Source: Sphingomonas psychrotolerans
GTDB taxonomy: Bacteria > Pseudomonadota > Alphaproteobacteria > Sphingomonadales > Sphingomonadaceae
Direction: 5' to 3'
Length of the DNA stretch: 64,000 nt
NCBI RefSeq assembly: GCF_002796605.1
Contig: NZ_CP024923.1
Span: forward strand, 2,046,001 to 2,110,000
Made by a program: the position numbers and the translations under genes. The notes under the pieces are model-generated. The model worked only from the letters and a program-made list of their open reading frames with translations. It was not told the origin of the DNA and did not search any database. Positions 1,738-29,869 of the stretch are shown here, piece after piece (within the stretch, counting starts at the first letter, position 1; the number at the start of each line of letters is the position of its first letter).

Positions 1738-1757
1738 TCGGACAGGAGACAAGGACC

Positions 1758-2771: not shown

Positions 2772-2798
2772 ACAAGCCTTCAGGAGAAGAACAAGCCC

Positions 2799-4109: not shown

Positions 4110-4115
4110 GAGGGA

Positions 4116-4904: not shown

Positions 4905-4948
4905 CGCTCGATCCTAGCGCTGCGAAGGGGCCGGGTACAACATAAGGA

Positions 4949-6457: not shown

Positions 6458-6470
6458 TCGGGGCTCCGCT

Positions 6471-9489: not shown

Positions 9490-10583
9490 CAGCGCATCTC
9501 CGCGCGGTGGTGGCCAAGCCCGGCGGCGTCGAAGAGATGCGCGGCGGCCGCGTCGATCGTGAGGCCGATGCGATCGCCCGCGCGGACCGAGGACACGCCG
9601 GCATCCTCGGCGACCAGCCGCGAACCGTCGCTCAGCAGCGTGTGGACGAGCGTGCGCTCACCGAGCCGCTCGACGATTTCGACGATACCGTGAATCGCTG
9701 CGTCCTCGCCCGCGGTCACGCACACGGTCTCGGCACGCAGCCCGAGCGTCATCGGCCCTTGAGGCAGGCGCTCGAAAGGAATGGCGGTATCGATGATCGT
9801 GCCGTCGCCCAGCCGCACCTTCGCGGCGCCCGACACACCGGCTTTGACCGCGACGGGCAGAAGATTGATCCGGGGCGACCCCACGAAGGCCGCGACGAAC
9901 TGGGTCCGTGGCCGCAGATAGATCTCCATCGGAGTGCCGACCTGCTCGATCCCGCCGGAATTGAGCACGACGATCCGATCGGCGAGCGTCATCGCCTCGA
10001 CCTGATCATGCGTGACGAAGATCATCGTCGCGCCCAGCCGGCGGTGAAGCTGGGCAAGCTCGAGCCGGGTGCGGACGCGCAGCGCCGCGTCGAGGTTGGA
10101 GAGCGGCTCGTCGAGCAGGAACAGCTCGGGCTGTTTGACGATGGCCCGGGCGATCGCGACGCGCTGGCACTGGCCGCCCGAAAGCTGCCCCGGCTTGCGC
10201 TCGAGCAAAGCCTCGATCTCAAGGCTCGCCGCGGCGGCCGCGATTCGGCTGGCGATCTCGGGTGCAGGTACGCGGATATTGCGCAGCCCGAACGCCATGT
10301 TCTCGCGCACGCTGAGATGCGGATAAAGTGCGTAATGCTGGAACACCATCGCGACGCCGCGCGCGCCGGGCGGCAAGTGATCGACTCGCCGCTCGCCGAT
10401 ACGGATCTCGCCGCTGTCGACGGTCTCCAGCCCCGCGATCATCCGCAACAGCGTGGATTTGCCGCAGCCCGATGGGCCGAGAAACACCGCGAACTCGCCC
10501 GCAGGAATGTCGAGCGACAGCCGCTCGATCACCGTGACGGCACCATATGCCTTGCCGACCTCGGCCAGCTGTACGCCCGCCAA
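9489..10583 (-). CDS. ABC sugar importer ATPase (UgpC/MsmX type)
   Basis: A 364-residue nucleotide-binding subunit. Walker A is GPSGCGKST (residues 36-44), the Q-loop is in AMVFQHYALYPHLSVREN, the signature is LSGGQCQRVAIARA, Walker B is LFLLDEPLSNLD, and the H-loop is FVTHDQVEAMTLADRI. A C-terminal TOBE/MalK-like regulatory region (about 240-364) follows. The start is TTG at 10583, with AAGGAG 7 bases upstream; a nearby ATG at 10587 is out of frame. It is the first gene of the importer/GH51/GntR operon, directly behind a promoter-like region. The missing fifth importer component is none: binding protein, two permeases and ATPase are all present. Confidence 0.93.
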   Translation of the reverse strand: MAGVQLAEVGKAYGAVTVIERLSLDIPAGEFAVFLGPSGCGKSTLLRMIAGLETVDSGEIRIGERRVDHLPPGARGVAMVFQHYALYPHLSVRENMAFGLRNIRVPAPEIASRIAAAAASLEIEALLERKPGQLSGGQCQRVAIARAIVKQPELFLLDEPLSNLDAALRVRTRLELAQLHRRLGATMIFVTHDQVEAMTLADRIVVLNSGGIEQVGTPMEIYLRPRTQFVAAFVGSPRINLLPVAVKAGVSGAAKVRLGDGTIIDTAIPFERLPQGPMTLGLRAETVCVTAGEDAAIHGIVEIVERLGERTLVHTLLSDGSRLVAEDAGVSSVRAGDRIGLTIDAAAAHLFDAAGLGHHRAEMR

Positions 10584-12074: not shown

Positions 12075-12094
12075 ACCCTGACTGCGGTCAGGGT
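12075..12094 (-). terminator. Possible terminator at the 3' end of the giant adhesin gene
   Basis: ACCCTGAC and GTCAGGGT form a perfect 8-bp stem around TGCG. The hairpin includes the stop codon of the giant gene. On the - strand a T5 run (ATTTTTG) follows about nine bases beyond the stem, farther than ideal for an intrinsic terminator. Confidence 0.35.
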
Positions 12095-13401
12095 AGCGGG
12101 TTGCTCGGCGTCTGGGCGGTCCCGGCACTCGGTCCGGTCGCGGTACCCGTCAGGCTTACGGCGATGTTGGCCGCACTGGCCCCCGGCGTGTTGCCGTTCG
12201 CGTTCCACGTGGCGACGGCATCGTCCTCGATTCCCGGGCCGCCGTCGAGGAAGCCCTGCAGGAAGATCCGCGGATCGTGGGTGTTGTCGAGCTCGGATAC
12301 GCGCAGGCGCAGCAGAGTGGGTGATGCGGTGGCGGTCAGGTTGTTGTTCGCGATGTTGGCGTAGATCTGGTTGGTCTCGATGGCCGTTCCCGACGACGAG
12401 CCGCTCTGGATGTTGATATCCGCAAGCGTGTTCACGTCGGTCGAGTCGATGACGTTGCCAGTCAGCGTCAGATCGAGGCGGGCGCTGCCCTCACGCGCGA
12501 TCGCGTCGACCGCCGCACTGTTGTTGCCGGCACCCTGGGTCAAGGTGTTGCCGGTGACCGCGACGGTGAGGTGCGAATTCTCCTGCGCCAGCAGGCGGAC
12601 GCTGCTGCCCGATGCACCGCTGCCGGCGGGAAGCTGGCTATAGACTTCCACATCGGCGTTGTTGGCGATCCGGCCCATCACGTTCGCGCTGATGAACGAA
12701 GTGATGTTGATCGCGGCGCCGCCGCTCGCGCGGATCGTCGGGTTGCCGATGATGTTGAACCGCACCGTCGCGGTGTCGTTGCCGTTGATGTCGATCCCGG
12801 CGCCGATATCGGTCTGGCTGTCGATGACGCTGTTGGTGATGTCGACGCTGACCACCGAATCGTCTTCGCCGATGATCTGGACCGCTTGGGTGCGCAGGCG
12901 CAGCAAGTCGCTGTCGACGATGTCGATATTGGTCGTCGGCGTGCCGCCGGCGACGCTGAAGCTGCGGAACTGGAGGCCACCCTCGCCGATACCGCTGCTC
13001 TGCGTGTCGCGGAAGATCACGTTGTTCAGCGTCAGGTTGAGGTTCACGTCGGTGTTGACGATGTCGAGGCTGTTGGTCTCCGACAGCGCGATCTCGGTAT
13101 TGGTCAGCGACGACGTGCCAGAGAGGTTGCTGAACTCGATCCCGCTTTCGTTTGCGCCGTCGCCGGCGCCAGTAATCAGGCTGTTGTTGAGCTGGAAGTT
13201 GCTCACGTTGATCCCGGTGATGCCGTTGTCGGCGATCGTGCCGGTGATGTTGATGTTGTTGAACACCGCGGTGGCGACCCCGCTCATATAGATCGCGCCA
13301 TTCGCCGTAGTGAGATCGAGATCCTGGCCCGCGGCCTGCCCGGTGGTGCTGGCATTGGTCAGGTTCAGATTGCTGATGTTGACCAAAGCGGTGTTGAGCA
13401 A
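12088..13401 (-). CDS. Giant adhesin, C-terminal piece (third frame)
   Basis: This frame carries the last part of the adhesin. The in-frame continuation begins at the frameshift near 13477-13482, where the - strand reads on as LTVTGTGTTDGSGGTIQNI; the ATG at 13401 is only the first methionine inside it. The content is a beta-helix-like ladder (VDITNSVIDSQTDIGAGIDI, LDLTLTGNVIDSTDVN). It differs from the rest in ending with a non-repetitive segment, RLRVSELDNTHDPRIFLQGF, then an Ala/Thr/Pro tail. This may be the distal tip or C-terminal cap of the passenger, the part most exposed on the cell surface in inverse autotransporters. It has no start of its own and should not be read as a separate gene. 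Confidence 0.7.
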   Translation of the reverse strand: MLNTALVNISNLNLTNASTTGQAAGQDLDLTTANGAIYMSGVATAVFNNINITGTIADNGITGINVSNFQLNNSLITGAGDGANESGIEFSNLSGTSSLTNTEIALSETNSLDIVNTDVNLNLTLNNVIFRDTQSSGIGEGGLQFRSFSVAGGTPTTNIDIVDSDLLRLRTQAVQIIGEDDSVVSVDITNSVIDSQTDIGAGIDINGNDTATVRFNIIGNPTIRASGGAAINITSFISANVMGRIANNADVEVYSQLPAGSGASGSSVRLLAQENSHLTVAVTGNTLTQGAGNNSAAVDAIAREGSARLDLTLTGNVIDSTDVNTLADINIQSGSSSGTAIETNQIYANIANNNLTATASPTLLRLRVSELDNTHDPRIFLQGFLDGGPGIEDDAVATWNANGNTPGASAANIAVSLTGTATGPSAGTAQTPSNPLP

Positions 13402-16400
13402 TTCGATCCCGCGCTGGGTGATGTTCTGGATCGTGCCGCCCGAGCCATCGGTGGTGCCGGTGCCGGTGACGGTGAGCCCCCCGCGCCGCCGGTGGTGTTG
13501 AGCACGATGCCGCGGGTGCCGCCATTCGCCGAGATCGACAGGAAGTCGAGCCCACCACCGGCGATGTTGGTGTTGACCAGGTTGAGCGCGATGCCGCCGG
13601 CCGAGGCGATCGTGTTGTTGGCGCCGGTGATCGTCAGCGAGCCCGCACCCGCATTGGTCGACGTGCCGGTAATGCCGCGTCCGCTCGTCGTATCCACATC
13701 GAGACCGCCGCCGGTGAACGACACCGCCGCGCCGGTGGCGGCATTGTTGTCGAACTGGAGTGCGTTGCTGGCGCCGGTGCTGAGCGTCTTGCTCGCGCCC
13801 GAGAAGACGATGCTCCCGCCGCTATTGTTGCTGAGCAAGATGCCGTTTGCCGCACCTCCGGTGGCCGAGATGGTGTTCGAGAAGGTGACCGTGCCGCCGG
13901 TATGGCCGCTCACCTCCACGACGTTGCCGGCATTGGTCTTGGCGATCGATGCCGCCACGGTGACGCTGCCGCTGCCGCCGGTGACATTGACTCCGTCGCC
14001 GGTGATGCTGCCCGCGCCGCCGGCGCCAATCGTGCCGCCGTTGATCGCGATCGCGCCGGTCGCCCCGGCCGCGCCGATGATCGAGACGCCATGCGCAGTG
14101 GTGTTGTCGATGTCGACGCTGGTGAAGGTCACGGTGCCGTTGCCGGAGCCATTGATCTCTATACCGTCGCCGCTGATCGTGCCCGTGCCGATCGTCGTCG
14201 CGCCGAAGCTGACATTGGCGGCCGAACCGTTGCCGATGAAGATCGCGTCGTTGCCGCCACCCGTGCCGGCAATCGAAGTGGTGCCGCCGATGAACGCGCC
14301 CCCGGCGCTGTCGAAATTGTTGAAGTTGATCGCGATCGTCGTGACCACGCCGGTGCTCTGCAGCGAAGCCCAGTTGATGCCGCTGGCGCCCGCGCTCACC
14401 CCGGTGAGGTCGATGACTTGCCCCGTGTCTGTCTGGATGCTGTTCCCGCCGCCCGCGACCGTGATCGTACCGCCGCCGGTCGCGTCGAAGCCGGTGCCGC
14501 TGGTGGTGACGATGTCGAGCCCGTTGCCGCCTGCCAGCGGCGCGAAGTTGACCGTCGCGCCGCTATTGTTGTTCAGCGTCACGGCGGCATTAACCCCGGT
14601 GTTGAGGCTGATCGTCTGGCCGGTAAAGGCGATCGTGCCGCCGGTGTTGTTGGCGATGCTGATGCCGAGGCTGGTATCGGTGAGGTTGCCCGAAAGGGTC
14701 GCGATGCCGCCGGTGCGGTTCGTCACCTCGACCGAACGCGACGCGCCGCCGCTGGTGGTCAGGGTGCCGCCATAAGTGAAGTTGAGCGCGTCGCCGTTGA
14801 GCGAGACGCCGCGGGTCGTGGCGGTGATCGCGCCGGCGGCGATGTTCACCGTGCCGGTGATCGTGCCCGCCCCGGTGCGCTGGACGAAGATGCCGTTGGC
14901 GCCGCTGGTATTGCTCGCCGAGGCGAAGGCGAGGTTGACCGCGGTCGTGGTGCCGCCGGTATCGGTGACGCTGAGCAGCGTTCCGCTCGTCGTCGTGATC
15001 GAATTGCCGCTGCCCTGGACGTTCACCGTTCCGCCTCCGGTGACAATCATCGCGGTGCTGGTCGTGCCAGTGATGTCGAGCCCGGTGCCGCCCGCATTGA
15101 AGGTGATCGTCGAGCCCGCGTTGCCCGACAGATTCACTGCCGTGCCAGTGCTGGAGATGGCCATCTGGCCGGTGAAGGTGACTACGCCGCCATTGCTGTT
15201 GGCGACCGAGATCACGTTGCTGGCATTGGCGATGCTGCTGCTGATCGCGCCGTTGAACGTGGCGGTGCCCGCGTCGTGCCCGTCGATCTCGACTGCAGTC
15301 CCGTCATTGTCGGTGATCGTGCCGTCGAAAGTGACGTTGGCGCTGCTGAGCAGCACGAAGGCATTGCCCGCGGCATTATGGGTTAGCGCCGTTGCCGAGC
15401 CGAAGGCGAAGGTTCCGGTCGCGCCGCCCAAGATGTCGATGCCGGCACCGCCGCCGTTGAGCGTCGTGATCCCGGTAAAGTTATAGGTGCCGTCGGCGTT
15501 GTTGAACTGCATGCCGGCGCCGTTGGTCGCATTGATCAGGCCGGCAAAGGCGAAGGTCCCGGCGGTGTGGTTGCCGGTGAAGTTCAGCGTCAGTCCGCCT
15601 GTCGCCTGAACGATCGAGCTCGCGCCGTCGAAACTGAAGCCGGCGGTGCCGCCGCTGACGGTCAGCGCGGAGGTCGTCGCGCCTGCGATGTCGACATTGG
15701 TAGCGTTGATCGTGCCGGCCGCATTGGTGAACGACAGGCCGGTCGCCGCGCCGGTGATGCTGACGTTGGTCAGCGTCGTCGTGCCGGTGGCATTGTCGAT
15801 GATGATCGAAGTGCCGGTCGCGCCGGAAGCGGTCACGTTGGTGATCGTGCTGCCGGCGGCGTTGAGGAACGCGTCGTTGGTGTTGCCGGTGAAGGTCACG
15901 TTGTCGATCGTGGTGTTGGTCGACGGCGTGATCTCGATGCCATAGCCGCCCACCGCGTCGAAATTGCGGATCGTCATGAAGTTGACGATCGTGCCGGTGG
16001 CGCCGCCATTGTCGACGATGCCGCGCAACGCGCCGGCAGGGTCGCCGTCGAGGATGAAGCCCGAAATGCGGTTGCCGCTCGCGCCCAGCGTGATCACATT
16101 GGCGCCAGCCGCCGAAGTGAGCGTCGCCGCGCCATTGCCGGTGGGATCGGCGATATTGATCGTGTTGCTCGATAGCTGGATCGTCGCGGGGACGACCAGT
16201 GTAAGCGCCAGCGGCCCTTGGCCGAAGCCGCGCACCTGGGTGTCGGCGAGCAAGGCAAGCGTATCGTTGCCGTTCGAGCCCGCGGCGCTGATCGCGTTGC
16301 CGTCGTTGACGAGCACGATCACGTCGGTGGCGGCCAGCACGAGCTCTGCCGCACCGAGCGTCATCGGATTGGCGCCGTCTGCCCCCGATCCGTTGCCGCC

Positions 16401-19400
16401 GCCGGTGGCACCGTTCGAATCGACGAACCACGTACGGCCGACGCCGAAGCCGAGGCCCGGGCTCGCGCCGAACGTGACGTCGGTGAAGTTGTAGGTGCCG
16501 GCGACGGGCGCCGCCGCGGCGTTGATCCCGGTCGCCGCGGAAATGGTCGAGGTGCCGTCGGTGGCCGATTCGCCGTCGCCATAGGTGAAGGTCGCGTTGG
16601 TCGCCGCATTGAGCCAGACGCCGGTGGCGACGCCCGAGATGGTCGACGCGGCGCCGCCGACGGCCGAGTCGCCGAGCCGGATCACCTGCCCGCCGGTGGT
16701 ACCGCGCAGGTCGACGGCAACCGATATCCCCGCCGCGGCCGCATTGGTCACGTCGAAATCGCCCGCGGTGATCGCCGCAGACAGCGTGGCGCCGTTCAGG
16801 TCAACCGCGATGGCAGCGTTATTGTTGAGGCCGATGTCGAGATCGCCGATCGTCAGTGCTGCGCCGAGCGTGCCGGTGACGTCGATACCGCGTGACAGCA
16901 CGCCCTGCAGATTGACCGTGCCCAGCGTGATCGCGCCGCCGCCTGACGAACCGACATTGGTGAGCGCGATGCCGGTGGCGATATTGGTGGTGTTCACGCT
17001 CGCGAAGTTGATGCCGCCGGCGCCGGCCGTCACGCCATCCAGCACGATGACCTGGTTGCCGGTGGCGCTGATCGTGTTGCCGCTGCCGGTGATGTTCAGC
17101 GTGCCGCCGCCCTGCGCGAAGAGGCCGCTGGCGCTGCTGGTGATCGCCATCCCGCCGCCGGTGAAGTTGATCGTCGCGCCGGTATTGTTGAGCAATTCGA
17201 CGCCGATCGTGGCGCCGCCGTTGATCGCGTTATTGGCGCCCGAGAAGGTGATCGTGCTGCCGCCGCTGTTGTTCATGATCGACCAGCCGCTGGCCGCGCC
17301 GCCCGAAGAGATGAAGCCGCCGAAGTCGATGCTGCCGCCGGTGCGATTCTGAATATCGATCGCGCGCGCCGCAGTGGTTTTGAGGATCCCCGCGTTGATC
17401 GTGATCGCGCCGCTGCCGCCATCGATGACCACGCCGCTGCCGGTCGGATCGTTGAGGTTGCCGATGTCGCCGCCGCCGACCGTCACCGTCCCGTCGGAAC
17501 CCGTGATCAGGACGCCGTCGCTGGCAGTGTTGTCGATGGTGACGCTGGTGAAGCTGATCGCGCCGTTGCCCGCGCCGTTGATTTCGATGCCCTCGTCGCC
17601 GGTGCCGGCGATCGTGGTGGCGCCGAAGCTGACCGCCGAGCTGGAACCGCCGCCGACGAAAATGCCGTCGCTCGTCGCGCCGCTGGTGCCCGCGACCGAT
17701 ACGGTGCCGCCGTTGAACGCGCCGCCATCGAGATTGTTGATCCGGATCGCGGTGTTGGCGACGGTGCCCGAATTGCCGAGCGAGGCGAAGGCGATGCCGC
17801 CGGCGCCCGCGGTCACCCCGTCGAGATTGACGATCGAGCCGGTCGTCGTGGCGATCGAATTGCCCGCCCCGGCGACGCTGATCGTGCCGCCGACCGAGGC
17901 GATCAGCCCCGCGCCACTGGTGGTGACCACATCGACACCGGCGCCGCCGCCTGCGAAACTGATCGTCGCGCCGGCATTGTTGGTGAACGACAGGCCGATG
18001 CCGCTGGTGTTGTTGATGGATACCGCGCCGTTGAACGTCGCGTCGAGCGCGTCGGTCTGGGCGGTATTGTCCTGGATCGCGATACCGGCGGTGGTGGCGC
18101 CGGTGACGGTGACTGCCCCGGTGACAGTGAAGCCGCCCTCGACCTGATCGAGCAAGATGCCATAGGCGCCGCCATTCGCGGTGACGCTCGCCAGCGTCAT
18201 GTTGACGGTCAGCGGATCGAGATTGACCGCGGTGCCCCCGGTGGTGTCGGTCGAGCCGTCGAGCGTGGTCAGCAGGAAGCTGTTCGCCTTGGAATTGGCG
18301 ACGAGCAGGCCGGTGCCGCCAGTGTTGGCGATGTCGAGATCGCTGAAGGTCAGCGCCCCCGAGACGTTAGTCAGGCTGAGGCCGCCGCCCTGCACACGCG
18401 CGCCGGTCGTGCCGATGGTCAACGCGCCGCCGTTGACGGCCTGGATCCCGCCGGTCGCGAGGTCGCTGTCGAAGGTCACGGTGTTGAACACCAGGCCCGC
18501 AGTCTCGCCGCCGGCGGTGCCGATGTTCAGGTTCGACATGCCGGTAACGGTCAGCGTGCCGCCGGTGCCGTCGAGGTTGAGCAACGCGCCGGCCTGGTTG
18601 CCGGCATTGGCGAGGCTCAGATTCTGCAGGTTGACGATGCGCGCGAATGCGCCGGAGCGCAGATCGATCGCCGCGCCGCCGCCCGAGATCGTGCTGTTGC
18701 GGAGCGTCGCGGTGCCGGCATTGGCGTTGGCGAAGATGCCCGCGCCAGTGCCGGTGTTCGACACCACGACGCCGTCGATCACGCTGGTGCCCCCAAGCTG
18801 AACGGTGCCGGTGGCGTCCGCCGATGTCAGCAGCGGCGCGCCCGAGCCGCTGTTTGGATTGGTGATGGTACCGGTGGTGACGTTGAAGACGAAGACGTTG
18901 GGCGGCGCACCGCCGCCGACATTGAAGCTGTCGGTGTCACGGAAGCTGAGCAGCGACTGATTGTTCGCCAGCGTGAGCGTGCCCGAGAGCGTGTCGAAGC
19001 TGCCCGCCCCCGCCTGCGTATCGAGCAGAACGATGTAGCTCGCACTCGACGCGTCGGCCGCGGCGAGGCTCCCCGGATCCGACCGGCTGCCGACGCCGCT
19101 CGCGCCGGCGCGGACGAAGAAGGCGCTGACCTCGAGCGGACTGGTGTCGCCGACGAGGGTAGCGTCGCGGAAATCATAGGTGCCGGTCGCGCCGTTGAGC
19201 CCGGCGATGACGATCGGCGTGGTGGCGTTGATCGTCGAGGCGGCCAGATCGAAGTCGATGTTCGAGCCGTCGCCATAGCGGAAGGGCCCGGTGCGTGACG
19301 CATTTGTGAGGTCGACGCCGATGCCGACCCCGGTGATCGTGCTGCTATCGCCGACGATGAAGCCGGTGCTGCTGGTATTGCCGGTGAGATCGATGCCGCG

Positions 19401-22400
19401 CGTACCCGTGGCCGTGGCACCGCTGATGTCGAGCGTCGTGAAATTGAGGTTCCCGCCCATTGATGCACGCGCATCGACACCGCGCGCCCCGGTCTGCAAG
19501 CCGGTGATGTCGACATTGGCGAAGCTGATCGCACCGGTATTGCCGGCGCCAAAGAGGATGCCAGCGACGGTGGCGCCGTCGATCACGGTGTTGCCGACGG
19601 TCAGCGTATTGGTGAGACCGGTGACCGCGATGCCGGTGGCGCTGGAGCTGATGTTCACCGTGCCGATGCCGACGGCGCCGCTGTTCGTCGTCAGCGCAAT
19701 GCCGGCGCCCACGGCGCCGGATATCGTGACGTTGCCGAGGTTCACCGGCGCGCTCGAATTGTGGAGCGAGACTCCCGAACCTGCCGCGCCGGCAACGGTG
19801 ATGCTGCCGAAGCCGAGCGTGCCGAAACCGCCGATCGTGCCGAGATCGATTCCCGCACCCGCTGTGGTCGCCGAGACCGTACCAAAGGTCAGATTGGCGC
19901 CGTCGATGACGATGTCGGCGAGCGTCAGCAGCGCGCCCGAACCGCTATGCGACATATTGATGCCCGACCCGGCCACCGTCAGCATGCCGGCACCCGCGCC
20001 GCTCAGCTCCAGCGCCGAATCGGCGCCCGAGGCGGCAAGGCTGAGATTGGTGAGCGTCGCCGTCGCAACGACGCCGCCATCGGTGAGGCGCAGCGCCGTG
20101 CCGGCTCCCGAAAGCGTCGCGTTCGACACCGTGACGCCGGTGAGGCCGGCACCACGGATCGCGGCAAAGCCGGCCACGCTCTGCACGAACACACCGTCGA
20201 CGAGACTGTTGCTGGCCAGCGTCACGGTGTTGGCCGCGCCGGTGGTGGTCACGACCGGAGCGCGGTCGGTAGCGGTGTCGCCGAGCACACCGTACGGGTT
20301 GACCACCTGCCCCGTCGTCACGCCGGTCAGGATGACGTTGGCCGGCGCGCCGCCGGGCAGGATAATCGTATTGTTGTCGCGGAAGCTGCGCAGCGCCTGA
20401 TTGGCGTCGAGCACCAGCGAATCGTTGCCGTTGGAGCCGAGTGCGTCGAGCACGTCCTGCCCGCCGGTGGGGTTGTTGAGCAGGATGATGAAGTCGGCGG
20501 TCGCCAGTTCGGCGCCGGCGAGGCTGCCTGGATCGCCGAGCGTGCCAGCGCCGGTCGCGCCGGCCAGGACGTAATAGACCGTCGCCGAAGTCGCGAGCCC
20601 GCTGGTGTCGCCGATCAGGCTCACATCGGCGAAATTATAGGTGCCCGCGCCGCCGTTGAGGCCTGTGATGACCAGCGGCGTGGTGGCGGCGATCGTCGAG
20701 GCAGTCGGCGCGCTGCCGTCGCCATATTGGAAGAGACTGGTGCGCGAGGCGTTAGTCAGGTCAACGCCCACGCCCACGCCGGTGATCGCGCTGCTGTTGG
20801 TGATGACGATGTTGCCGGTGCCAGTGTTGCCGGTGAGGTCGATGCCCTTGCTGCCGACGGCCGAGGTGCCGGCGATGTCGAGCGTGTCGAACGTGACAAT
20901 GCCCGTCGCGCCGGTCAGATTGACTGCGGTCTGGTTCGCGCCGAGGCCGGTGACGTCGACGTCACCAAAGGTGAAGGCGCCGCTCGATCCGTTGAAGATC
21001 GCGATCCGCGCGCCGCCCGACAGGGCCAGAGCGCCGAACGTGTAGGTCCCGTCGGCATTGTCGAAGCTGATGCCGAAGCCGTTGGTGACGTCGAAGGTCG
21101 CCGCGCTCAGGTTGATCGCGCTCTGATCGGATGTGGCGTGAACCACTTCGGACGCGGCAGGGGCGTTGGCCACGAGCGTGCCCGAATAGGTGATGTTCGC
21201 CTGTGAGGTGATGGCAATGAGTCCGACCATCATCGAAGTGACGCTCGTGGCGGTGCCGAAGCTGAAGGTGCCGGCCGAACCGTTGGCGACCCGGATGCCT
21301 GCCGAGGCCCAGCTCAGCGTGGTTGGGCCGGTGAAGTTGTAGGTACCGTCAGCGTTATCAAATCGCACGCCGGTGCCGTCGGTGGCGCTGATCATGCCCG
21401 TCTGGAAGGTAAGCGTGCCCACGCTGTGATTGATGACGTTCACCGCTGCCTGCCCGGAGGTCGCGAAGGTCAGGTCGCCGCTATAGGTCAGCCCGGCGGT
21501 CGAGTTCGCGATGTTGATCCCCGTGCCGCTCGGGCTGGTGATCGATGTCCCGGTGCCGAAGCTGAAGACGCCGGCCGAACCGTTGACGATGTCGATCCCG
21601 GCATCGCCGCCGTTCAGCGTCGTGGTGCCGGTGAAATTATAGCTGCCGTCGGCATTGTTGAACTGCAGGCCGGTGCCATTGGTGACGTTGAGCGTGCCGG
21701 TCTGGAAGAGAATCGTACCTACGCTGTGATTGACGACGTTCACCGCTGCCTGCCCGGCAGTAGCGAAGGTCAGATTGCCGCTATAGGTCACCCCGGCGGT
21801 CGAGTTGGCGATATTGATGCCTGCGCCAGTGGGGCTGGTGATCGACGTCCCCGTACCGAACGCAAAGGCGCCGCCCGAGCCGTTGACGATGTCGATCCCG
21901 GCATCGCCGCCGTTCAGCGTGGTGGTGCCGGTGAAATTATAGCTGCCGTCGGCATCGTCGAACTGCAGCCCGGTGCCGCCCGTCGCGCTCAGCGTGCCGC
22001 TGAAGGTCGCGGCATTGATGTTGCCGTTGCCGACCAGCACCAACGCGCCCGTGGTGATCCCGGTGATGTCGCCGGCATAGCTGAAGTTGCCCGCGCCCGT
22101 GTTGGACAGCTCGATGGCCGCGGTCGTGCTCCCGACGATCGACGAGCCGCTGCCGAAATTGAAATTGCCGCTGGTCGTGCCAGCCAGCACAACGCCGACG
22201 GCAGGGTTGCCAGTGACAGTCAGCGTGCCGATATCGAGCGCGCGCCCGCCCGCCCCCACACCGGTTACGTCGTTGGCGATTACGGCGATACCGGAACCTG
22301 CATAATCGACGCTGGTCAGTTGAATATCGGCCGAGAGATTGTCCAGCGCGATCGCATTGTAGTTGAGGGCGTTCATGCTATCGATGGTCCCGCCGGTGAT

Positions 22401-24347
22401 GGCGAGGGTGAAGCCGCCGGCGTCGCCACTGGCGAAGAGCCCGACTGCTCCTGTGTTGAAGATGGTCGTCGCGAGGCTGAGCGCGCCCGTCGCACGTTCC
22501 ATAATGAAGCCATAGCCCGCGACGCGATCGGCTGCGCTGCCGATGTCGACCGTGCCGGTCACCGTCTGGATCCCTGCCGCGGACAAATCCGCGTCGAAGA
22601 CGACATCCTGGCCGTACACGCCCCCGGTCAGGAACCCGCCAGCGGTGGTGCCAGCGATGGTGATGCCAGTAAGTTGGGTGACGGTGAGCTGGCCGCCGCC
22701 ATTGCCCATCAGAGAGAGCGTCGAAAGGCCGCCGAGGTTGCCGCCCGACAGAGCGAGGTTGCTCAGCGCAACATCGGCGGCGAGGCCGTTGTCGATGATC
22801 TCGATCGCGCTGATGCTGCCGAAGATCGCGCTGTTGCGGATGCTGACACCCGTCATGCCGGCGCCGTACACGCCCCGCGCATCGAGATTGCCGATCTGGA
22901 CGCCGTCGATCAGCGTGCCCGAGGCGAGCGTGACCGTATTGGCGCCCGCCTGGCTGGTGGTGAGCAAAGCCGCGCCCGAACCCGCATAGGGATTGGTGAC
23001 GGTGCCGCCAGCAAGACCGAAGAGCAACAGGTTCGCCGGCGCGCCGCCGCCGACGCTGAGCGTGTCGCCGTTGAGGAAGCTCAACAGGCTCTGGTTCGCG
23101 ATGAGATCGAGGCTACCACCGGCCGAGGCGGCGTCGAGGACGTCCTGGCCGGCGCCGACCTGCGTATCGAGCAGGATGATGACGTCGGCGCCCGAGGCCT
23201 CTGCCGCGGCAAGGCTGCCGGGATCGGCGCGCGTGCCGGCGCCGACTGCGCCCGATTGCACCCAGTAAACCGTCTTGTTGGTCTGCAGACCGCTGGTGTC
23301 GCCGCTGAGCGCGACATCGGCGAAGTCATAGGTCCCGACGCCCGGATTGAGCCCGCCGATCGCGATCGGGGTGATCGCGCTGATCGACGATGCAGCGCCG
23401 TCGGCATCGGTGCTCGAGCCGTCGCCATAACGGAAAGTGCCGGTGATCGCCGCGTTGGTGAGATCGACGCCCACATCGACGCCGGTGATGCTGCTGCTCT
23501 CGTTGACGTTGATGTTGGCTGCGGTGGTCGATCCGGTCAGGTCGATGCCAGTGCCGCCTGTGCCGGTAATGTCGAGCGTCTGGAACGTCACGTTGCCGGT
23601 CGCCCCAGTCAGGTCCACTGCGGTCTGGCCCGCGCCGAGCCCGGTGATGTCGACGTTGTCGAAGCTGATCGCGCCGGCCGAACCGCTGGTGATGCTGATG
23701 CCCGCGCCGCCGGAGAGCTGGACATCGCCCAATATGGTGTTGCCGTCGGCATCGGTGAAGGTCATCCCCGCGCCCGTGCTCGCGCTGATTGTCGCCTGCG
23801 AGAAGTCGAGCGTGCCGCCGGTCTGACCGATCACGCCGAAGTTGTCGCCAGCGGTGGTTTGACTGAGGCTGCCGAGATAGGTGACGTTGGCATCCGAATT
23901 ATGCAGGAAGAAATTGGAGATCGTGTTGTTTGTCGCGCTGGTCCCGGCGCCGAAGAACATGTTGCCCGATGAGCCGGACACGATGCTGATCCCGCCGTCG
24001 GCGTGCATCGTCGTCGTGCCGGTGAAGGAATAGCTTCCGTCGGCGTCGATGAAGAAAAGTCCTTCGCCGCCGGCTACGTCGATCGTGCCGTCGTGGAAGT
24101 TCGCCGTGCCGGTGTGGCTGAACGCCCACAATGTCGCGCCGGCGCCCGGAGTGCTGGTGATGTCGCCGGCAAAATCGAGATTGACGGTGCCACCCAGTTC
24201 GACGGCGTAATCGCTATCGTGCGTGATCGATGCGTTGGTGAACACATAGTCGCCGCTGCCGGCCAGGTGGAGCCCGCCGCCGGTAAGGCTCAGGCTGCCG
24301 ACGTTGAGCACGGGTTGGCCCGCATCGGCTGCAATGCCATCGACCAT
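13365..24347 (-). CDS. Giant adhesin, central repeat piece (second frame)
   Basis: About 3,690 residues of passenger repeats in one uninterrupted frame; the true in-frame segment extends from the first frameshift near 24445 to the second near 13480. It contains four of the recurrent module heads (near 23275, 20585, 19135 and 16435), each a variant of VxxGAxGxGTxxDPGSLAxA followed by IILL and a GGAPxNLLL strand. A block of 100-residue tandem repeats (21.0-22.0 kb) is built around DNADGTYNFTG and TAGxTYSGxLTFAT. Composition is dominated by Gly, Thr, Ala, Asn and Ile with almost no Cys or Lys, as expected of a stacked beta-solenoid. ATG 24347 is an internal methionine, not a translation start with a credible ribosome site. 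Confidence 0.75.
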   Translation of the reverse strand: MVDGIAADAGQPVLNVGSLSLTGGGLHLAGSGDYVFTNASITHDSDYAVELGGTVNLDFAGDITSTPGAGATLWAFSHTGTANFHDGTIDVAGGEGLFFIDADGSYSFTGTTTMHADGGISIVSGSSGNMFFGAGTSATNNTISNFFLHNSDANVTYLGSLSQTTAGDNFGVIGQTGGTLDFSQATISASTGAGMTFTDADGNTILGDVQLSGGAGISITSGSAGAISFDNVDITGLGAGQTAVDLTGATGNVTFQTLDITGTGGTGIDLTGSTTAANINVNESSSITGVDVGVDLTNAAITGTFRYGDGSSTDADGAASSISAITPIAIGGLNPGVGTYDFADVALSGDTSGLQTNKTVYWVQSGAVGAGTRADPGSLAAAEASGADVIILLDTQVGAGQDVLDAASAGGSLDLIANQSLLSFLNGDTLSVGGGAPANLLLFGLAGGTVTNPYAGSGAALLTTSQAGANTVTLASGTLIDGVQIGNLDARGVYGAGMTGVSIRNSAIFGSISAIEIIDNGLAADVALSNLALSGGNLGGLSTLSLMGNGGGQLTVTQLTGITIAGTTAGGFLTGGVYGQDVVFDADLSAAGIQTVTGTVDIGSAADRVAGYGFIMERATGALSLATTIFNTGAVGLFASGDAGGFTLAITGGTIDSMNALNYNAIALDNLSADIQLTSVDYAGSGIAVIANDVTGVGAGGRALDIGTLTVTGNPAVGVVLAGTTSGNFNFGSGSSIVGSTTAAIELSNTGAGNFSYAGDITGITTGALVLVGNGNINAATFSGTLSATGGTGLQFDDADGSYNFTGTTTLNGGDAGIDIVNGSGGAFAFGTGTSITSPTGAGINIANSTAGVTYSGNLTFATAGQAAVNVVNHSVGTILFQTGTLNVTNGTGLQFNNADGSYNFTGTTTLNGGDAGIDIVNGSAGVFSFGTGTSITSPSGTGINIANSTAGLTYSGDLTFATSGQAAVNVINHSVGTLTFQTGMISATDGTGVRFDNADGTYNFTGPTTLSWASAGIRVANGSAGTFSFGTATSVTSMMVGLIAITSQANITYSGTLVANAPAASEVVHATSDQSAINLSAATFDVTNGFGISFDNADGTYTFGALALSGGARIAIFNGSSGAFTFGDVDVTGLGANQTAVNLTGATGIVTFDTLDIAGTSAVGSKGIDLTGNTGTGNIVITNSSAITGVGVGVDLTNASRTSLFQYGDGSAPTASTIAATTPLVITGLNGGAGTYNFADVSLIGDTSGLATSATVYYVLAGATGAGTLGDPGSLAGAELATADFIILLNNPTGGQDVLDALGSNGNDSLVLDANQALRSFRDNNTIILPGGAPANVILTGVTTGQVVNPYGVLGDTATDRAPVVTTTGAANTVTLASNSLVDGVFVQSVAGFAAIRGAGLTGVTVSNATLSGAGTALRLTDGGVVATATLTNLSLAASGADSALELSGAGAGMLTVAGSGINMSHSGSGALLTLADIVIDGANLTFGTVSATTAGAGIDLGTIGGFGTLGFGSITVAGAAGSGVSLHNSSAPVNLGNVTISGAVGAGIALTTNSGAVGIGTVNISSSATGIAVTGLTNTLTVGNTVIDGATVAGILFGAGNTGAISFANVDITGLQTGARGVDARASMGGNLNFTTLDISGATATGTRGIDLTGNTSSTGFIVGDSSTITGVGIGVDLTNASRTGPFRYGDGSNIDFDLAASTINATTPIVIAGLNGATGTYDFRDATLVGDTSPLEVSAFFVRAGASGVGSRSDPGSLAAADASSASYIVLLDTQAGAGSFDTLSGTLTLANNQSLLSFRDTDSFNVGGGAPPNVFVFNVTTGTITNPNSGSGAPLLTSADATGTVQLGGTSVIDGVVVSNTGTGAGIFANANAGTATLRNSTISGGGAAIDLRSGAFARIVNLQNLSLANAGNQAGALLNLDGTGGTLTVTGMSNLNIGTAGGETAGLVFNTVTFDSDLATGGIQAVNGGALTIGTTGARVQGGGLSLTNVSGALTFSDLDIANTGGTGLLVANSKANSFLLTTLDGSTDTTGGTAVNLDPLTVNMTLASVTANGGAYGILLDQVEGGFTVTGAVTVTGATTAGIAIQDNTAQTDALDATFNGAVSINNTSGIGLSFTNNAGATISFAGGGAGVDVVTTSGAGLIASVGGTISVAGAGNSIATTTGSIVNLDGVTAGAGGIAFASLGNSGTVANTAIRINNLDGGAFNGGTVSVAGTSGATSDGIFVGGGSSSAVSFGATTIAGTGDEGIEINGAGNGAISFTSVTIDNTASDGVLITGSDGTVTVGGGDIGNLNDPTGSGVVIDGGSGAITINAGILKTTAARAIDIQNRTGGSIDFGGFISSGGAASGWSIMNNSGGSTITFSGANNAINGGATIGVELLNNTGATINFTGGGMAITSSASGLFAQGGGTLNITGSGNTISATGNQVIVLDGVTAGAGGINFASVNTTNIATGIALTNVGSSGGGAITLGTVNLQGVLSRGIDVTGTLGAALTIGDLDIGLNNNAAIAVDLNGATLSAAITAGDFDVTNAAAAGISVAVDLRGTTGGQVIRLGDSAVGGAASTISGVATGVWLNAATNATFTYGDGESATDGTSTISAATGINAAAAPVAGTYNFTDVTFGASPGLGFGVGRTWFVDSNGATGGGNGSGADGANPMTLGAAELVLAATDVIVLVNDGNAISAAGSNGNDTLALLADTQVRGFGQGPLALTLVVPATIQLSSNTINIADPTGNGAATLTSAAGANVITLGASGNRISGFILDGDPAGALRGIVDNGGATGTIVNFMTIRNFDAVGGYGIEITPSTNTTIDNVTFTGNTNDAFLNAAGSTITNVTASGATGTSIIIDNATGTTTLTNVSITGAATGLSFTNAAGTINATNVDIAGATTSALTVSGGTAGFSFDGASSIVQATGGLTLNFTGNHTAGTFAFAGLINATNGAGMQFNNADGTYNFTGITTLNGGGAGIDILGGATGTFAFGSATALTHNAAGNAFVLLSSANVTFDGTITDNDGTAVEIDGHDAGTATFNGAISSSIANASNVISVANSNGGVVTFTGQMAISSTGTAVNLSGNAGSTITFNAGGTGLDITGTTSTAMIVTGGGTVNVQGSGNSITTTSGTLLSVTDTGGTTTAVNLAFASASNTSGANGIFVQRTGAGTITGTVNIAAGAITATTRGVSLNGDALNFTYGGTLTTSGGASRSVEVTNRTGGIATLSGNLTDTSLGISIANNTGGTIAFTGQTISLNTGVNAAVTLNNNSGATVNFAPLAGGNGLDIVTTSGTGFDATGGGTITVAGGGNSIQTDTGQVIDLTGVSAGASGINWASLQSTGVVTTIAINFNNFDSAGGAFIGGTTSIAGTGGGNDAIFIGNGSAANVSFGATTIGTGTISGDGIEINGSGNGTVTFTSVDIDNTTAHGVSIIGAAGATGAIAINGGTIGAGGAGSITGDGVNVTGGSGSVTVAASIAKTNAGNVVEVSGHTGGTVTFSNTISATGGAANGILLSNNSGGSIVFSGASKTLSTGASNALQFDNNAATGAAVSFTGGGLDVDTTSGRGITGTSTNAGAGSLTITGANNTIASAGGIALNLVNTNIAGGGLDFLSISANGGTRGIVLNTTGGAGGSPSPAPAPPMARAARSRTSPSAGSNCSTPLWSTSAI
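21000..21995 (-). repeat. 300-bp tandem repeats inside the giant adhesin gene
   Basis: Units of 300 bp (100 residues) follow one another. The segments at 21421-21720 and 21721-21960 are almost identical (for example ACGCTGTGATTGATGACG versus ACGCTGTGATTGACGACG, 300 bp apart). A further unit edge lies near 21990 and a degenerate fourth unit runs to about 21000. Each unit encodes GLQFxxADGSYNFTGTTT, GGDAGIDIVNGS, FGTGTSITSP and TYSGxLTFAT. Such recent duplications are expected sites of recombination and assembly collapse. Confidence 0.75.
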
Positions 24348-27300
24348 GTCGATTCCGCCAGCGGTGGCGGTGATGCTGCCGAAATTGAGCGTGAGCGCGC
24401 CAGCCGCGGTGACCAGCGCGTCGTCGCCTGCAGTGTCGATCGAGCCCCGCGCACGGTGGTGGTCAATCCGCCGCCAGTGAGCTCCACACCGACGCCATTG
24501 GCGTTGAAAACGTTCAGGCTGGTCAGTTCGAGGCTGCCATCGCCCATGATGCCAAAGCCCGTGCCATCGACCCGCGCGCCCGCTGCGCCGATCGTCACCG
24601 CGCCGACGACGGTCTGCACGCCCGCAATCGCCAGATCGGCGTCGAAGGTCACGTCGGCAGCGGACAATCCACCCGTTTCGCCATTGCCCCCCCTGACGGT
24701 GATGCCGGTAAACGCCGTCAAGGTGAGCGTGCCGGTGCCGGAGCCGTTGAGCTCGAGCGCAGTGCCGCCGCTCGATGCGAGTTGCAGGTTACTCAGCGCC
24801 GCGCTGGACGCGGCGGGGCCGTCACCCAGATAGATGGCGCCCATATGCCCGGAGATGGTGCTGTTGCGAATGGTGACATTGGCCAGCCCGACGCCCAGCA
24901 CGCCATACCCGCCGCCGACCGGCGTCTGGATCGAGAGGCCGTCGATCGTGTTCGACCCGCCCAGTGAAACGGCGTGCGCGCCTGCCACGGTCGTCGTCAA
25001 CACCGGCGCGCCCGAGCCGGCATAGGGGTTGCCGATCTGCCCCTGTGGCATGCCGTAGAGCAGCAGGTTTGAAGGCGCCCCGCCGGGCAGCATCAGAGTG
25101 TCGCCATTGAGGAAGCTGAGCAGATCGCGCCCGGCCGCAAGATCGAATGATCCGCCTGCGCCCGCCGCGTCGAGCAGGTCCTGCCCGCCGGTCGGATCGT
25201 TGAGCAGGATGATCGTGCTCGCGGCGGAGGCCTCGGCGCCGGCGAGGCTGCCCGGATCGGCGAGCGTGCCGATCCCGGTCGCGCCCGCCTTGACGAAATA
25301 GAGCGTCGCCGAGGTGGTCAGCGTCGCGGTATCGCCGGTGAGCACCACGTCGAGGAAGTCATAGCGGCCCACCCCGGCGTTGACGCCGGTGATGACGATC
25401 GGCGTCACGGCATTGATCGTGGAGGCCGCACCGTCGGCATCGGTGCTCGAGCCGTCGCCATAGCGGAAGCTGCCGGTGATCGCGGCGTTGGTGAGATCGA
25501 CGCCCACGCCGACGCCGGTGATGCTGCTGCTCTCGGCGATGATGAGATCGGTCGCGAAGCTCGCGCCGGTCAGATCGATGCCGCGCGTGCCGGTGGTCGA
25601 GCTGCCGGTGATGTCGAGCGTGTTGAAGCTGATCGTGCCGGAGGCAGCGCGCGCATCGACGCCTCTCCGCCCGGCGCCGAGACCGGCGATGTCGACGTCG
25701 CCGAACGCGATCGCGCCGGTGCTGCCCGCGCCGAAGACGACGCCCGAAACGCCCACGCCGGAGATGCTGGTGGTCCCGGTGAACGCGACGCTGCCGTCGA
25801 TGTCGGCGAGCACGATCGCGTTGGCCGCGCCGTTGATCGAGAGGCTGCCGATGGACACGCTCGCGCCCGTCGCGACGCCGTTGATCGAAACGCCGGTGGC
25901 GGCGCCGCTGATCGCACCGCCGCCGACGGCGACGGTGCCGAGGCTGTTCTGAATCTCGAGGCCGGCGCCCGCGGCGCCGCTGACCGTGAGCCCGCCGATC
26001 GTGACCGCGCCGTTTCCGGCCAGCCCGACGCCGTTCGCGCCGCTGCCGCTCGCGGTGATCGTGCCGATCGTGATCGCGCCGCTGTTGTTCGCAAGCTGGA
26101 CGGCGTCGCCGGCACTGCCGCTCACGCCGATCGACTGGACGAGGACGGCGCTGCTGCTGCCGTTGACCGACACGCCGGCGCCCGCCGCCGTTCCCGCCAC
26201 TGCGATGCTGCCGAAGACGAGATTGCCGCCGGTGACGTTCTGCGCCGATACCGCGCCGGTCGCGGAGGTGCCGGCCGAGACGGAGCCGAAGCCGAGCCCG
26301 CCCGAAATGATGTCGGCAAGCGACAGCGCCGCGCTGGCGCCCGTGGCGGCGATGTCCACGTCGGCGCCCGACACGGTCAGCGTCCCCGCCCCGGCCCCGC
26401 TCAGCGCGAGCGTGGTGCCCGCGGCGGAAGCGAGGTCCAGATGGGTCAGCTGGACCGAGCTTGTCGTGCCGCCGTCGCTGATCGCGATCGCGCCGTTCGC
26501 GCCGCTGATGTTCGAATTCTGGATCCGGACGTTGCTGACGCCGCTGCCCTCGACGCCAACGTCGCCGCCGGCGTTGCGGATGATCAGCCCGTCGATCGTG
26601 CTGTTGCTGGCGAGGTTGACTGTCGCCGATCCGGCAATGCTGGTCGTCAGCACCGCGCCGCCCGACCCGGCATAGACGTTGGTGATCCCGCTCGGCCCGA
26701 TCCCGCTGACGATCAGGTTGGCCGGCATGCCGCCGCCGCTCGCCGCGAAGAAATCGCCGTTCAGGAAGCTGACCAGGGATTGTCCGGCGGCCAGATCGAA
26801 CGATCCGCCCGCGCTTGCCGCGTCGAACACGTCCTGCCCGCCCGCTGCATCGTTGAGCAGGACGATATATTGTGCGGTCGAGGCGTCGGCCCCGGCGAGG
26901 CTGCCCGGATCGTCGCGCGTGCCTGCGCCGGTCGCGCCGACCTGCGCGTAATACGCCGTGAAGCCGGCGCCGGTGAGATTGCTGGTGTCGCCCTGCAGCA
27001 CGACGTCGGCGAAATTATAGCTGCCATGGCCGGCGTTCATCAGTTCGATGATGATCGGAACATTGGCAGTGATGCGGCTGCCCATCGCAGTCGCATCGCC
27101 GTCGCCGAAGCGGAACTGGCCGGTCATATTGGCCTGAGTCAGATCGACCCCGATGTCGACGCCCTGGATTACGCTCCCGCCGAGGATCATCACGTTGCCG
27201 GCGTTGGTCGATCCGGTCAGATCGATACCCGTGCCGACGCCGGTGCCAGTGATGTCAAGCGTATTGAACAGCACGTTCCCTTGCGCGCCGCGCACGTCGA

Positions 27301-29869
27301 GTCCGGTGAAATCGCCTAGTCCGGTAATGTCGACATCGGCGAAGGTGACGCCGCCCGACACGTTGCCGATGACGATGCCGTTCGCACCCGGATTGGCGAT
27401 CGTCACCAGTCCATTGAACCGGATCGAGCCGGCGAGCCGGTTTAGCGTGATCGCATCGCCGACGGTGCCGGTGAGGGTGATCGCGCCGAAGCTGATCGCC
27501 GAACCCGCAAGGGTGTCCTCGACGAGGATGCGGCCGCTGCCGCTGATCGGCCCGGTGAAGCTGATCGTGCCCGTGCTGTTGAAGATCGCGACGATCGGCG
27601 AGGCCCCGGCCGGATCGGTGATCGATCCTGCGAAGATCAGGCCGACGCTGCCGCCGCTCCCGGCGACGCCCTGTTCGCCGATCCGGACCGAATTGCCGCC
27701 GCTGTTCGAAATCGCGCCGCCATTGACGCGCACCAGTCCGGTCGAGTTGAGGACGACCAGTCCGTCGCCGCCGCTGTTCGAAATCGTCAGCGTGCCGATG
27801 GTGAGCGCGTTGCCGCCGGTCCCGCCGCCCTGGACCGTGTTGAGGATCACACCCGGTCCGCCTGCGCCGACCGAGCTGACGCTGGCGAAATTGAGGTTGA
27901 TCACCAGCGGATCGAGGTCCGCCGCGGTGCCGCCGACCGTATCGATCGTGCCGTCGAGGGTGGCGAGGGTGAAGCTGTTGACCTTCGCGTTGACGACGCG
28001 GAGGCCCGTCGCCCCGCTGTTGGCGATGTCGAGATCGGCGAAACTCAGGCTGCCGGTGACGTCGGTGAGGAAGACGCCCTGGCCGTTCACTCGCGCGGCG
28101 GTGGTGCCGACTTCCATCCGCCCGGCATTGACCGCCTGGATGCCCGCCGTGGCAGTGCTAGCGTCGAAAGTCGCGGAGCGGACGCTGACGCCGCCGGTTT
28201 CGCCGGTGCCGCCGCGGATCGTGATCCCCGACATTCCCGTGACGGTGACCGTGCCGGCGCCCGATCCGTCCATGTCGAGCACATTGCCGCCGGTGGCGGA
28301 GAGCGTCAGGTTCGACAGCGAAACGGCAAGGTTCGCCCCGCCGTCGTTGATGTCGACTGCGCCCGCGCCGCCCGAGATCGTCGAGTTGGCGAGGCTCACG
28401 CTGCTGCCGCCGTTGATCAGCACGCCCGCACCCGCGCCGCCGCGGATGGTGAGCCCGGTGAGCGCGACAGCGCCCAAAGTGTTGGTGAGCGAAAGCCCCG
28501 CGCCGCCGGTATTCTCGATGATCACCCGGTCGAGCGCGAAGCCGCCGACTCCGTTTGCGGCGATCCCCGCGCCCGCGCCGCGCACCGTGACGTCGCGCAC
28601 CACCGAGCCTTGGCCGAGCGTCACTGCCGCCCCGCCCGCCGCGGTGCCGACGATGATGCCGTTGGTGCCGCCCAGCCCGTACGCGACCGTGCTGCCATTG
28701 CGCAGCCGCACATCGACTGCGCTTCCGCCGCCGAGCAGATATTGGTCGGTGGCCAGCGTCACGCCCGGCGTAGCGATGTTGCCTCCGCTGCCGAGGGCGA
28801 CGACGACGCCGTTGGTGCCCGCGCGCGTGACTGCATCGACGAGCGTGGTGGGCGTCGCGATCGTGCCTGCTGCGCCGGCGGCGCCCGTACCGCTGGCATA
28901 ATAGAAGCCGCCGAACTGGTTGCCCGTCCGGGCATCTACGGCGAAACGGGTGCTGGTCAGATCGGTGTACCGGCTGCCCGAGCGCGCGACATAATCGCGG
29001 CGCACCCGGTCGCCCATCTGGCGGTCGAGCCCGGTGGGCGCCGCGCCGCGATCGCCCCCGCGCCCGCCAAACGGGACCGACAACCGCACCGTCGCGCGCG
29101 CATCGGTGCCGAAGCGATTGTCGTGCTCCAGCGTGCCACCGAAGGTGAAGCGCGCGCCGCTGTCCTTGTCCTCGACGTCCATCTCGAGCCCGACGCGGTA
29201 GCCGCGGTAGTTCTCGTCGGCGTCCTTGTCCCAATAATCGAACCCACCGACCGAGCCGCGGATGCTGGCATTGTTGCCGATCGGCAGGCGCACGCCGGCC
29301 TCGCCGTTGAATCCCTGGAGCGGAATCGCCTCGAGCCGGAAGCCGCTATAGCGCTCGATCAGCCGATTATTCTCCAGCACCAGCGCACCCGCACCCGCGG
29401 CGGCGGGATCGATATAGCCGATCGTCCGGGTCTTGCTGAGCGGCAGGCGGTAATTGACTCGCACGTCGAACACCGAGGAGAAGCCCTCGAGCCCCATCGA
29501 CAGCGCCGCCTGATCGCGCGAGCCGATGTCCGAACGATAGAAATCGGCGCCGATATTGGCCCCGATCGCAATGTCCTCGCCGGCGCGAAAGCGTGCGCCG
29601 ACGGTGGCGGAACCGTTGCGGTCGAAGCGCGGGTCATAGCCGATGCGTCCGTCGACATAGACCAATGTCGAGTCGTTCTGCGCGATCGGCGCGAACAGCG
29701 AAGTCGAGACCCCGATATCCTTGCCGACCTGCGCATCGACTTCGGCCCGCGGCTTCCAGGTGGGCGCGTCGCTGGTCTGCCCCAGCGCGGGCGAAGCCGC
29801 GGCGAGGATCGCCCCGGTCAGGCACGTCGAAAAAAGGCGTGCCTTGCTGGACTTGCGCATCGATTTCAT
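24290..29869 (-). CDS. Giant adhesin, N-terminal piece: signal peptide, inverse-autotransporter barrel, first passenger modules
   Basis: This piece holds the true start, ATG 29869, and a Sec signal peptide (MKSMRKSSKARLFSTCLTGA then ILAAASPALG). Residues about 40-270 resemble the inverse-autotransporter (IAT/intimin-invasin) barrel: IAIGANIGADFYRSDIGSRD, MGLEGFSSVFDVRVNYRLPL, GFNGEAGVRLPI, FTFGGTLEHDNRFGTD, and a closing ATVRLSVPFG. A hydrophilic linker (about 270-315) is followed by beta-helix repeats with three module heads (near residue 320, then at 26959 and 25315 in the window). In-frame sequence stops making sense after TTTVRGA near 24447, where a missing G shifts the frame; the remaining about 50 residues to 24290 are out-of-frame. 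The first strand-rich repeats include GAGVLINGGSSVSLANSTIS. Confidence 0.85.
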   Translation of the reverse strand: MKSMRKSSKARLFSTCLTGAILAAASPALGQTSDAPTWKPRAEVDAQVGKDIGVSTSLFAPIAQNDSTLVYVDGRIGYDPRFDRNGSATVGARFRAGEDIAIGANIGADFYRSDIGSRDQAALSMGLEGFSSVFDVRVNYRLPLSKTRTIGYIDPAAAGAGALVLENNRLIERYSGFRLEAIPLQGFNGEAGVRLPIGNNASIRGSVGGFDYWDKDADENYRGYRVGLEMDVEDKDSGARFTFGGTLEHDNRFGTDARATVRLSVPFGGRGGDRGAAPTGLDRQMGDRVRRDYVARSGSRYTDLTSTRFAVDARTGNQFGGFYYASGTGAAGAAGTIATPTTLVDAVTRAGTNGVVVALGSGGNIATPGVTLATDQYLLGGGSAVDVRLRNGSTVAYGLGGTNGIIVGTAAGGAAVTLGQGSVVRDVTVRGAGAGIAANGVGGFALDRVIIENTGGAGLSLTNTLGAVALTGLTIRGGAGAGVLINGGSSVSLANSTISGGAGAVDINDGGANLAVSLSNLTLSATGGNVLDMDGSGAGTVTVTGMSGITIRGGTGETGGVSVRSATFDASTATAGIQAVNAGRMEVGTTAARVNGQGVFLTDVTGSLSFADLDIANSGATGLRVVNAKVNSFTLATLDGTIDTVGGTAADLDPLVINLNFASVSSVGAGGPGVILNTVQGGGTGGNALTIGTLTISNSGGDGLVVLNSTGLVRVNGGAISNSGGNSVRIGEQGVAGSGGSVGLIFAGSITDPAGASPIVAIFNSTGTISFTGPISGSGRILVEDTLAGSAISFGAITLTGTVGDAITLNRLAGSIRFNGLVTIANPGANGIVIGNVSGGVTFADVDITGLGDFTGLDVRGAQGNVLFNTLDITGTGVGTGIDLTGSTNAGNVMILGGSVIQGVDIGVDLTQANMTGQFRFGDGDATAMGSRITANVPIIIELMNAGHGSYNFADVVLQGDTSNLTGAGFTAYYAQVGATGAGTRDDPGSLAGADASTAQYIVLLNDAAGGQDVFDAASAGGSFDLAAGQSLVSFLNGDFFAASGGGMPANLIVSGIGPSGITNVYAGSGGAVLTTSIAGSATVNLASNSTIDGLIIRNAGGDVGVEGSGVSNVRIQNSNISGANGAIAISDGGTTSSVQLTHLDLASAAGTTLALSGAGAGTLTVSGADVDIAATGASAALSLADIISGGLGFGSVSAGTSATGAVSAQNVTGGNLVFGSIAVAGTAAGAGVSVNGSSSAVLVQSIGVSGSAGDAVQLANNSGAITIGTITASGSGANGVGLAGNGAVTIGGLTVSGAAGAGLEIQNSLGTVAVGGGAISGAATGVSINGVATGASVSIGSLSINGAANAIVLADIDGSVAFTGTTSISGVGVSGVVFGAGSTGAIAFGDVDIAGLGAGRRGVDARAASGTISFNTLDITGSSTTGTRGIDLTGASFATDLIIAESSSITGVGVGVDLTNAAITGSFRYGDGSSTDADGAASTINAVTPIVITGVNAGVGRYDFLDVVLTGDTATLTTSATLYFVKAGATGIGTLADPGSLAGAEASAASTIILLNDPTGGQDLLDAAGAGGSFDLAAGRDLLSFLNGDTLMLPGGAPSNLLLYGMPQGQIGNPYAGSGAPVLTTTVAGAHAVSLGGSNTIDGLSIQTPVGGGYGVLGVGLANVTIRNSTISGHMGAIYLGDGPAASSAALSNLQLASSGGTALELNGSGTGTLTLTAFTGITVRGGNGETGGLSAADVTFDADLAIAGVQTVVGAVTIGAAGARVDGTGFGIMGDGSLELTSLNVFNANGVGVELTGGGLTTTVRGARSTLQATTRWSPRLARSRSISAASPPPLAESTWSMALQPMRANPCSTSAA

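Follow-up and report, generated by a model that had tools for sequence, protein, structure and literature searches.

Inverse autotransporters, the type Ve branch of type V secretion represented by intimin and invasin and modelled by the Pfam family IAT_beta (PF11924), typically carry immunoglobulin-like (Ig-like) or lectin-like passengers, although the cited passage treats this trait as typical rather than defining (PMC6555100). According to the same passage, it is debated what powers export by type V systems, and folding-driven export is cited for intimin (PMC6555100). For alphaproteobacteria, the cited section of an early survey lists members consisting of barrels only (PMC3008723), and an inverse autotransporter is reported from a sponge alphaproteobacterium in a passage that leaves its passenger undescribed (PMC10947273). 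Within the excerpts of open-licence PubMed Central literature covered, no description of an inverse autotransporter with a beta-helix as its passenger was found. Here, we describe a locus on the minus strand of a 64,000-nucleotide stretch of the Sphingomonas psychrotolerans genome (contig NZ_CP024923.1, positions 2,046,001 to 2,110,000; hereafter the window). Judged from sequence comparison and structural models, the intact relatives of this locus probably encode a divergent inverse autotransporter of type Ve that bears a giant beta-helix as its stalk and would most likely serve in long-range attachment or biofilm adhesion.

Results

An earlier note on this DNA had read the locus as a single open reading frame (ORF) of 5.9 kilo-residues at 12088-29869. 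Such an uninterrupted frame had to be rejected, since the minus strand, on which all features given below lie, holds three ORFs in three frames instead. ORF1 (24290..29869, 1859 amino acids) comprises the signal peptide, barrel, linker and the first ~1,500 residues of the passenger, its final 40-50 residues being out of frame; ORF2 (13365..24347, 3660 amino acids) comprises the variable mid-stalk, and ORF3 (12088..13401, 437 amino acids) the C-terminal tip, which ends in SNPLP and carries no barrel. Intact relatives match ORF1 to about residue 1807-1818, then ORF2 to about residue 3624-3632 and then ORF3 to its end. At both handovers the similarity is lost in one frame and picked up in the following one, which places two frame changes, each only to within a stretch, at 24347..24450 and 13401..13480. 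Apart from the signal peptide, cysteines occur only in the out-of-frame tails, at residue 1854 of 1859 in ORF1 and residue 3650 of 3660 in ORF2. The frame changes may be real or may represent sequencing errors.

A Sec-type signal peptide (29777..29869, residues 1-31), read by eye and similar in relatives, precedes a predicted 12-strand barrel (29072..29764, ORF1 residues 36-266). The N-terminal barrel foreseen in the earlier note is borne out by the model, whose best solved matches are intimin (4e1s) and invasin (4e1t); the fold match continues into the linker (28925..29071, residues 267-315), which includes a short helix and can be aligned in sequence with the linkers of other inverse autotransporters. 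Ten residues are given as invariant in Int/Inv barrels in the cited section of PMC3008723, and seven of them (R93, G103, N105, G126, E128, N139 and G186) are kept according to our own mapping by spacing and alignment, in which R93 is the least certain.

The passenger opens with a first right-handed parallel beta-helix (28010..28912, residues 320-620), continues through the remainder of the conserved stalk base (24440..28009, with N-cap motifs near 26911 and 25258) and passes into the mid-stalk of ORF2, where N-cap motifs lie near 23225, 20534, 19079 and, in looser form, 16370. Both the start and the end of this passenger model as right-handed parallel beta-helix, in line with the giant Gly/Thr/Asn-rich beta-helix-like passenger claimed before, and internal homology suggests the same fold for the bulk of the stalk. 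VIA-align lists mainly beta-helix chains for the first model, and families missing there are not thereby excluded; in the Pfam scan at E<=1, none of the three ORFs matched an Ig-like family. Autocorrelation along the stalk gave weak peaks only, near 24-26 residues among others, and therefore no firm rung length is given. The proposed absence of a C-terminal barrel also holds, as the last 437 residues model as beta-helix and neither Pfam nor NCBIfam scans revealed a barrel family in ORF3. On the whole, the interpretation of the protein as an intimin-type N-terminal barrel joined to a solenoid passenger is supported.

Continuity of barrel and passenger within one chain is seen in the intact relatives only. 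An initial single-sequence search recovered the own genome and none of 60 others. A scan of genome contigs gave 12 loci, all titled Sphingomonas, with an open frame of 5060-7766 codons in ten of them; the remaining two are a frame of 2800 codons cut by the end of a 13,244-base contig and one split copy (1731 codons, and 1462 around the tip). A profile search of 295 congeners, a set overlapping with the former, matched 19 genomes (own genome included), 18 strongly and one weakly; a single uninterrupted frame, again of 5060-7766 codons, is present in 15 of the 18 strong matches, the other three being the window copy, the contig-cut frame of 2800 and the split copy in an 88%-complete genome. When 1049 long candidates were scored in a protein search, 33 matches of 3636-7313 amino acids were obtained at E<=0.01, the named ones all from Sphingomonas, whose source names include right-handed parallel beta-helix, beta strand repeat, S-layer and autotransporter-domain protein. 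In the nearest five relatives ORF1 is 79-83% identical up to about residue 1810, and the mid-stalk varies in length. Synteny with the window upstream of the gene was found in four of the nine loci compared (L002, L003, L005 and L006) and is absent in L009-L013; downstream similarity was found in all six stretches compared.

Pairwise ratios of nonsynonymous to synonymous substitution (dN/dS), computed by the Nei-Gojobori method with our own script for comparisons with three relatives, are 0.115, 0.116 and 0.122 for the barrel, 0.248, 0.291 and 0.268 for the stalk base and 0.394, 0.124 and 0.092 for the tip; by this comparison barrel and tip are under constraint. No cysteine follows the signal peptide in the 62,907 residues of ten intact relatives, against 41 in 5,959 residues of a comparison set of 16 neighbouring genes picked by eye.

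Five of the ten intact relatives have the C-terminal tip, at 68-92% identity; the other five end differently, with no match to it at E<=1e-5. The five loci without upstream synteny (L009-L013, genomes G068-G072) possess a different C-terminal region, with a proline-rich end in four of them (G069-G072). Among the 33 giants of the protein search, the tip forms the C-terminus of 15, with identities of at least 60%. No family above cut-off was assigned to ORF3 in Pfam and NCBIfam. A tip ~58% identical is also carried by a paralog in the same genome (L028), built of RTX repeats and Ig/cadherin domains. This RTX and Big_9/cadherin protein lies at L028:4911-9803, corresponding to G000:C1 ~4384910-4389802 on the minus strand, and has ~56 further residues after the tip. 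No type I exporter was found beside it among the ten flanking ORFs scanned; these include an amidohydrolase, an N-formylglutamate amidohydrolase, a urocanase and a TonB receptor (one each), and no family was assigned to the other six, some of which may not be genes. A search with the L028 tip (candidates of ~900-2,850 amino acids, 7,986 scored) returned 64 proteins (P0039-P0102) spanning phyla, with Spirosoma, Dyadobacter, Nocardioides and Pyrinomonadaceae among the named records. All 64 align with the window tip at 30-85% identity (51, 52 and 52% in the Spirosoma, Dyadobacter and Nocardioides proteins, respectively); the tip forms the exact protein end in 24 of them, 19 of which have NP-any-P as the last four residues. 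Such recurrence on several stalk types suggests that the tip is a surface domain for which no Pfam or NCBIfam model scores above cut-off.

As for the surroundings, the gene labels that we read by eye from translations at 37-10583 of the window (TonB receptor, GH43-like, sugar permease, GntR regulator, GH51-like and ABC sugar importer) look like what we take to be an arabinose-polymer utilisation cluster.

Discussion

The barrel fold match, the beta-helix at both passenger ends, the lack of a C-terminal barrel and of cysteines, the constraint on barrel and tip and the existence of intact relatives are all supported by sequence or model. The intact protein would be exported by Sec, its N-terminal 12-strand barrel would be inserted by the outer-membrane assembly machinery, and the linker would thread the pore, by analogy with intimin. 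The passenger, in which Ig-like domains are replaced by what is envisaged as some seven consecutive right-handed beta-helix modules, the majority bearing a recognisable N-cap, would then be pushed out N-end first, its modules folding in turn outside and ratcheting the chain out, so that folding itself may serve as the driving force. The conserved 437-residue tip would emerge last and be presented at a distance of perhaps 100 nm from the cell. Long-range attachment or biofilm adhesion appears the most likely function of the protein.

Several observations weigh against this assignment. The search with PF11924 that the earlier note had proposed as a check turned out borderline: a match to IAT_beta was obtained, but its score (17.0, 20.9 or 19.0 bits, depending on the stretch given) stays below the gathering cut-off of 22.3, and at E<=0.001 the family had no match in the window genome. 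Class membership from the Pfam score alone was therefore rejected; many relatives found with the profile of the window protein do pass the cut-off. The barrel profile matched no PDB chain at E<=1, and for this reason the link to intimin is drawn from the fold and from intermediate relatives. Three of the ten invariant residues are changed (A122, R141 and N188), and the Pfam scan found no LysM, a domain that is not universal among inverse autotransporters. The passenger was modelled at both ends only; Beta_helix scores 23.2 in ORF2, under its cut-off of 25.9, and no Pfam family was assigned to 2,000 residues taken from the middle of an intact relative. As the tip found no Foldseek match at E<=0.001 (best 8.4e-3), its fold is taken from the model and VIA-align. 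Cysteines beyond residue 60 are present in seven of nine other alphaproteobacterial IAT-type proteins counted (2-4 in each; none in L033 and L092). Finally, since the window copy is broken, the strain may lack the full protein.

The last point leads to the alternative that survives best, and which is compatible with an inverse autotransporter as the product of the family: the window copy may be a genuine, decaying pseudogene of a real family, displaying at most a truncated barrel and ~1,500 residues of stalk without the tip. We regard this as a serious possibility, somewhat short of even. It is favoured by two frame changes within a single gene, by the presence of two split copies among the 18 strong matches, own genome included, and by an estimated genome completeness of 100, which means that the assembly is not generally poor. 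On the other side, dN/dS is low in barrel and base, and in the tip against two of three relatives, and no in-frame cysteine follows the signal peptide, so there is no sign of relaxed selection; moreover, the other split copy belongs to a one-contig genome with a completeness of only 88, as sequencing errors would give. That copy (G067/G1008; L008, L031) fits sequencing errors in its own genome.

Much less probable is the proposal that the beta-helix modules are polysaccharide-acting enzymes, like alginate epimerases or lyases, rather than a structural stalk. The best structural matches of the passenger models are indeed alginate epimerase/lyase and AlgE modules, but the same fold is common to pertactin, Vag8 and phage tailspikes, and the mere six lysines in 3,660 residues of ORF2 misfit, as a weak argument, a conserved lysine in each module. 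That the barrel is a mere membrane anchor or porin, with the solenoid staying periplasmic, is highly improbable: a barrel by itself is no proof of export and a 12-strand barrel has both ends on the periplasmic side, but the match to the intimin/invasin fold extends into a linker alignable with those of other inverse autotransporters, the estimated length of the solenoid exceeds what the periplasm could accommodate, and the tip recurs C-terminally on Ig/cadherin-type proteins such as Spirosoma P0068 and Nocardioides P0085.

Returning to the inverse autotransporter with a beta-helix stalk, it is conceivable, though we hold this broader proposal to be rather doubtful, that the family represents an undescribed alphaproteobacterial subclass of type Ve, secreting a giant beta-helix devoid of cysteine in the N-to-C direction as a mirror of type Va, with capped modules acting as folding ratchets and with an exchangeable tip on display, a domain shared across phyla with proteins that use other export routes. 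A beta-helix on an inverse barrel could be used to ask whether sequential beta-helix folding drives export in the direction opposite to that of pertactin-like autotransporters.

Comparison with known secretion systems

Classical type Va autotransporters such as pertactin and Vag8 have, according to the cited passage, a C-terminal barrel and C-to-N export (PMC6555100); with no C-terminal barrel found in the window protein, this class was rejected. In two-partner secretion (type Vb) the passenger is marked by an N-terminal TPS domain, none of which was detected in ORF1 at E<=1 in Pfam and NCBIfam, and the window chain, unlike type Vb, carries its own barrel. The RTX and Ig/cadherin proteins (L028 and those of Spirosoma, Dyadobacter and Nocardioides) share the tip domain with the window protein but differ from it in having an RTX and/or Big_9/cadherin stalk and no IAT barrel among their listed Pfam domains; presumably they use other export routes.

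With intimin and invasin the window protein shares the signal peptide, an N-terminal barrel of 12 strands with the same predicted fold, the linker and a C-terminal passenger. It departs from them in the predicted beta-helix nature of the passenger, as against Ig-like or lectin-like domains, and in a divergent barrel which scores below the Pfam cut-off, has three of the ten reported invariant residues changed and is accompanied by no LysM match. When 398 genomes of the phylum were searched with PF11924, 20 gave a match, and 25 proteins (24 from 30 loci, several of these proteins being truncated by the edge of the locus, and one re-fetched) were scanned at E<=0.01, giving IAT_beta in 24, Big_1 in nine and Beta_helix in one (L077, from the window's class). 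Similar in plan are seven short alphaproteobacterial proteins (L033, L034, L039, L040, L042, L057 and L077), which combine the same barrel family with a right-handed beta-helix passenger, both domains scoring above Pfam cut-offs; they differ from the window's family in their length, 632-931 amino acids as read (L077 being cut at the locus edge) versus 5,000-7,700, and in having 2-4 cysteines in six of the seven. A giant of 4457 codons in another alphaproteobacterial family (L092:974-14344, minus strand, G560:C23) shows a similar plan with a passenger that looks beta-helix-like by eye; it reached 31.6 bits for IAT_beta in the genome search, gave no Pfam match at E<=0.01 when scanned over its full length and has no cysteine beyond residue 60 in its 4457 residues. 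The architecture of barrel plus beta-helix is not unique to the window's family, being shared in alphaproteobacteria by these short examples and, by eye, by one other giant.
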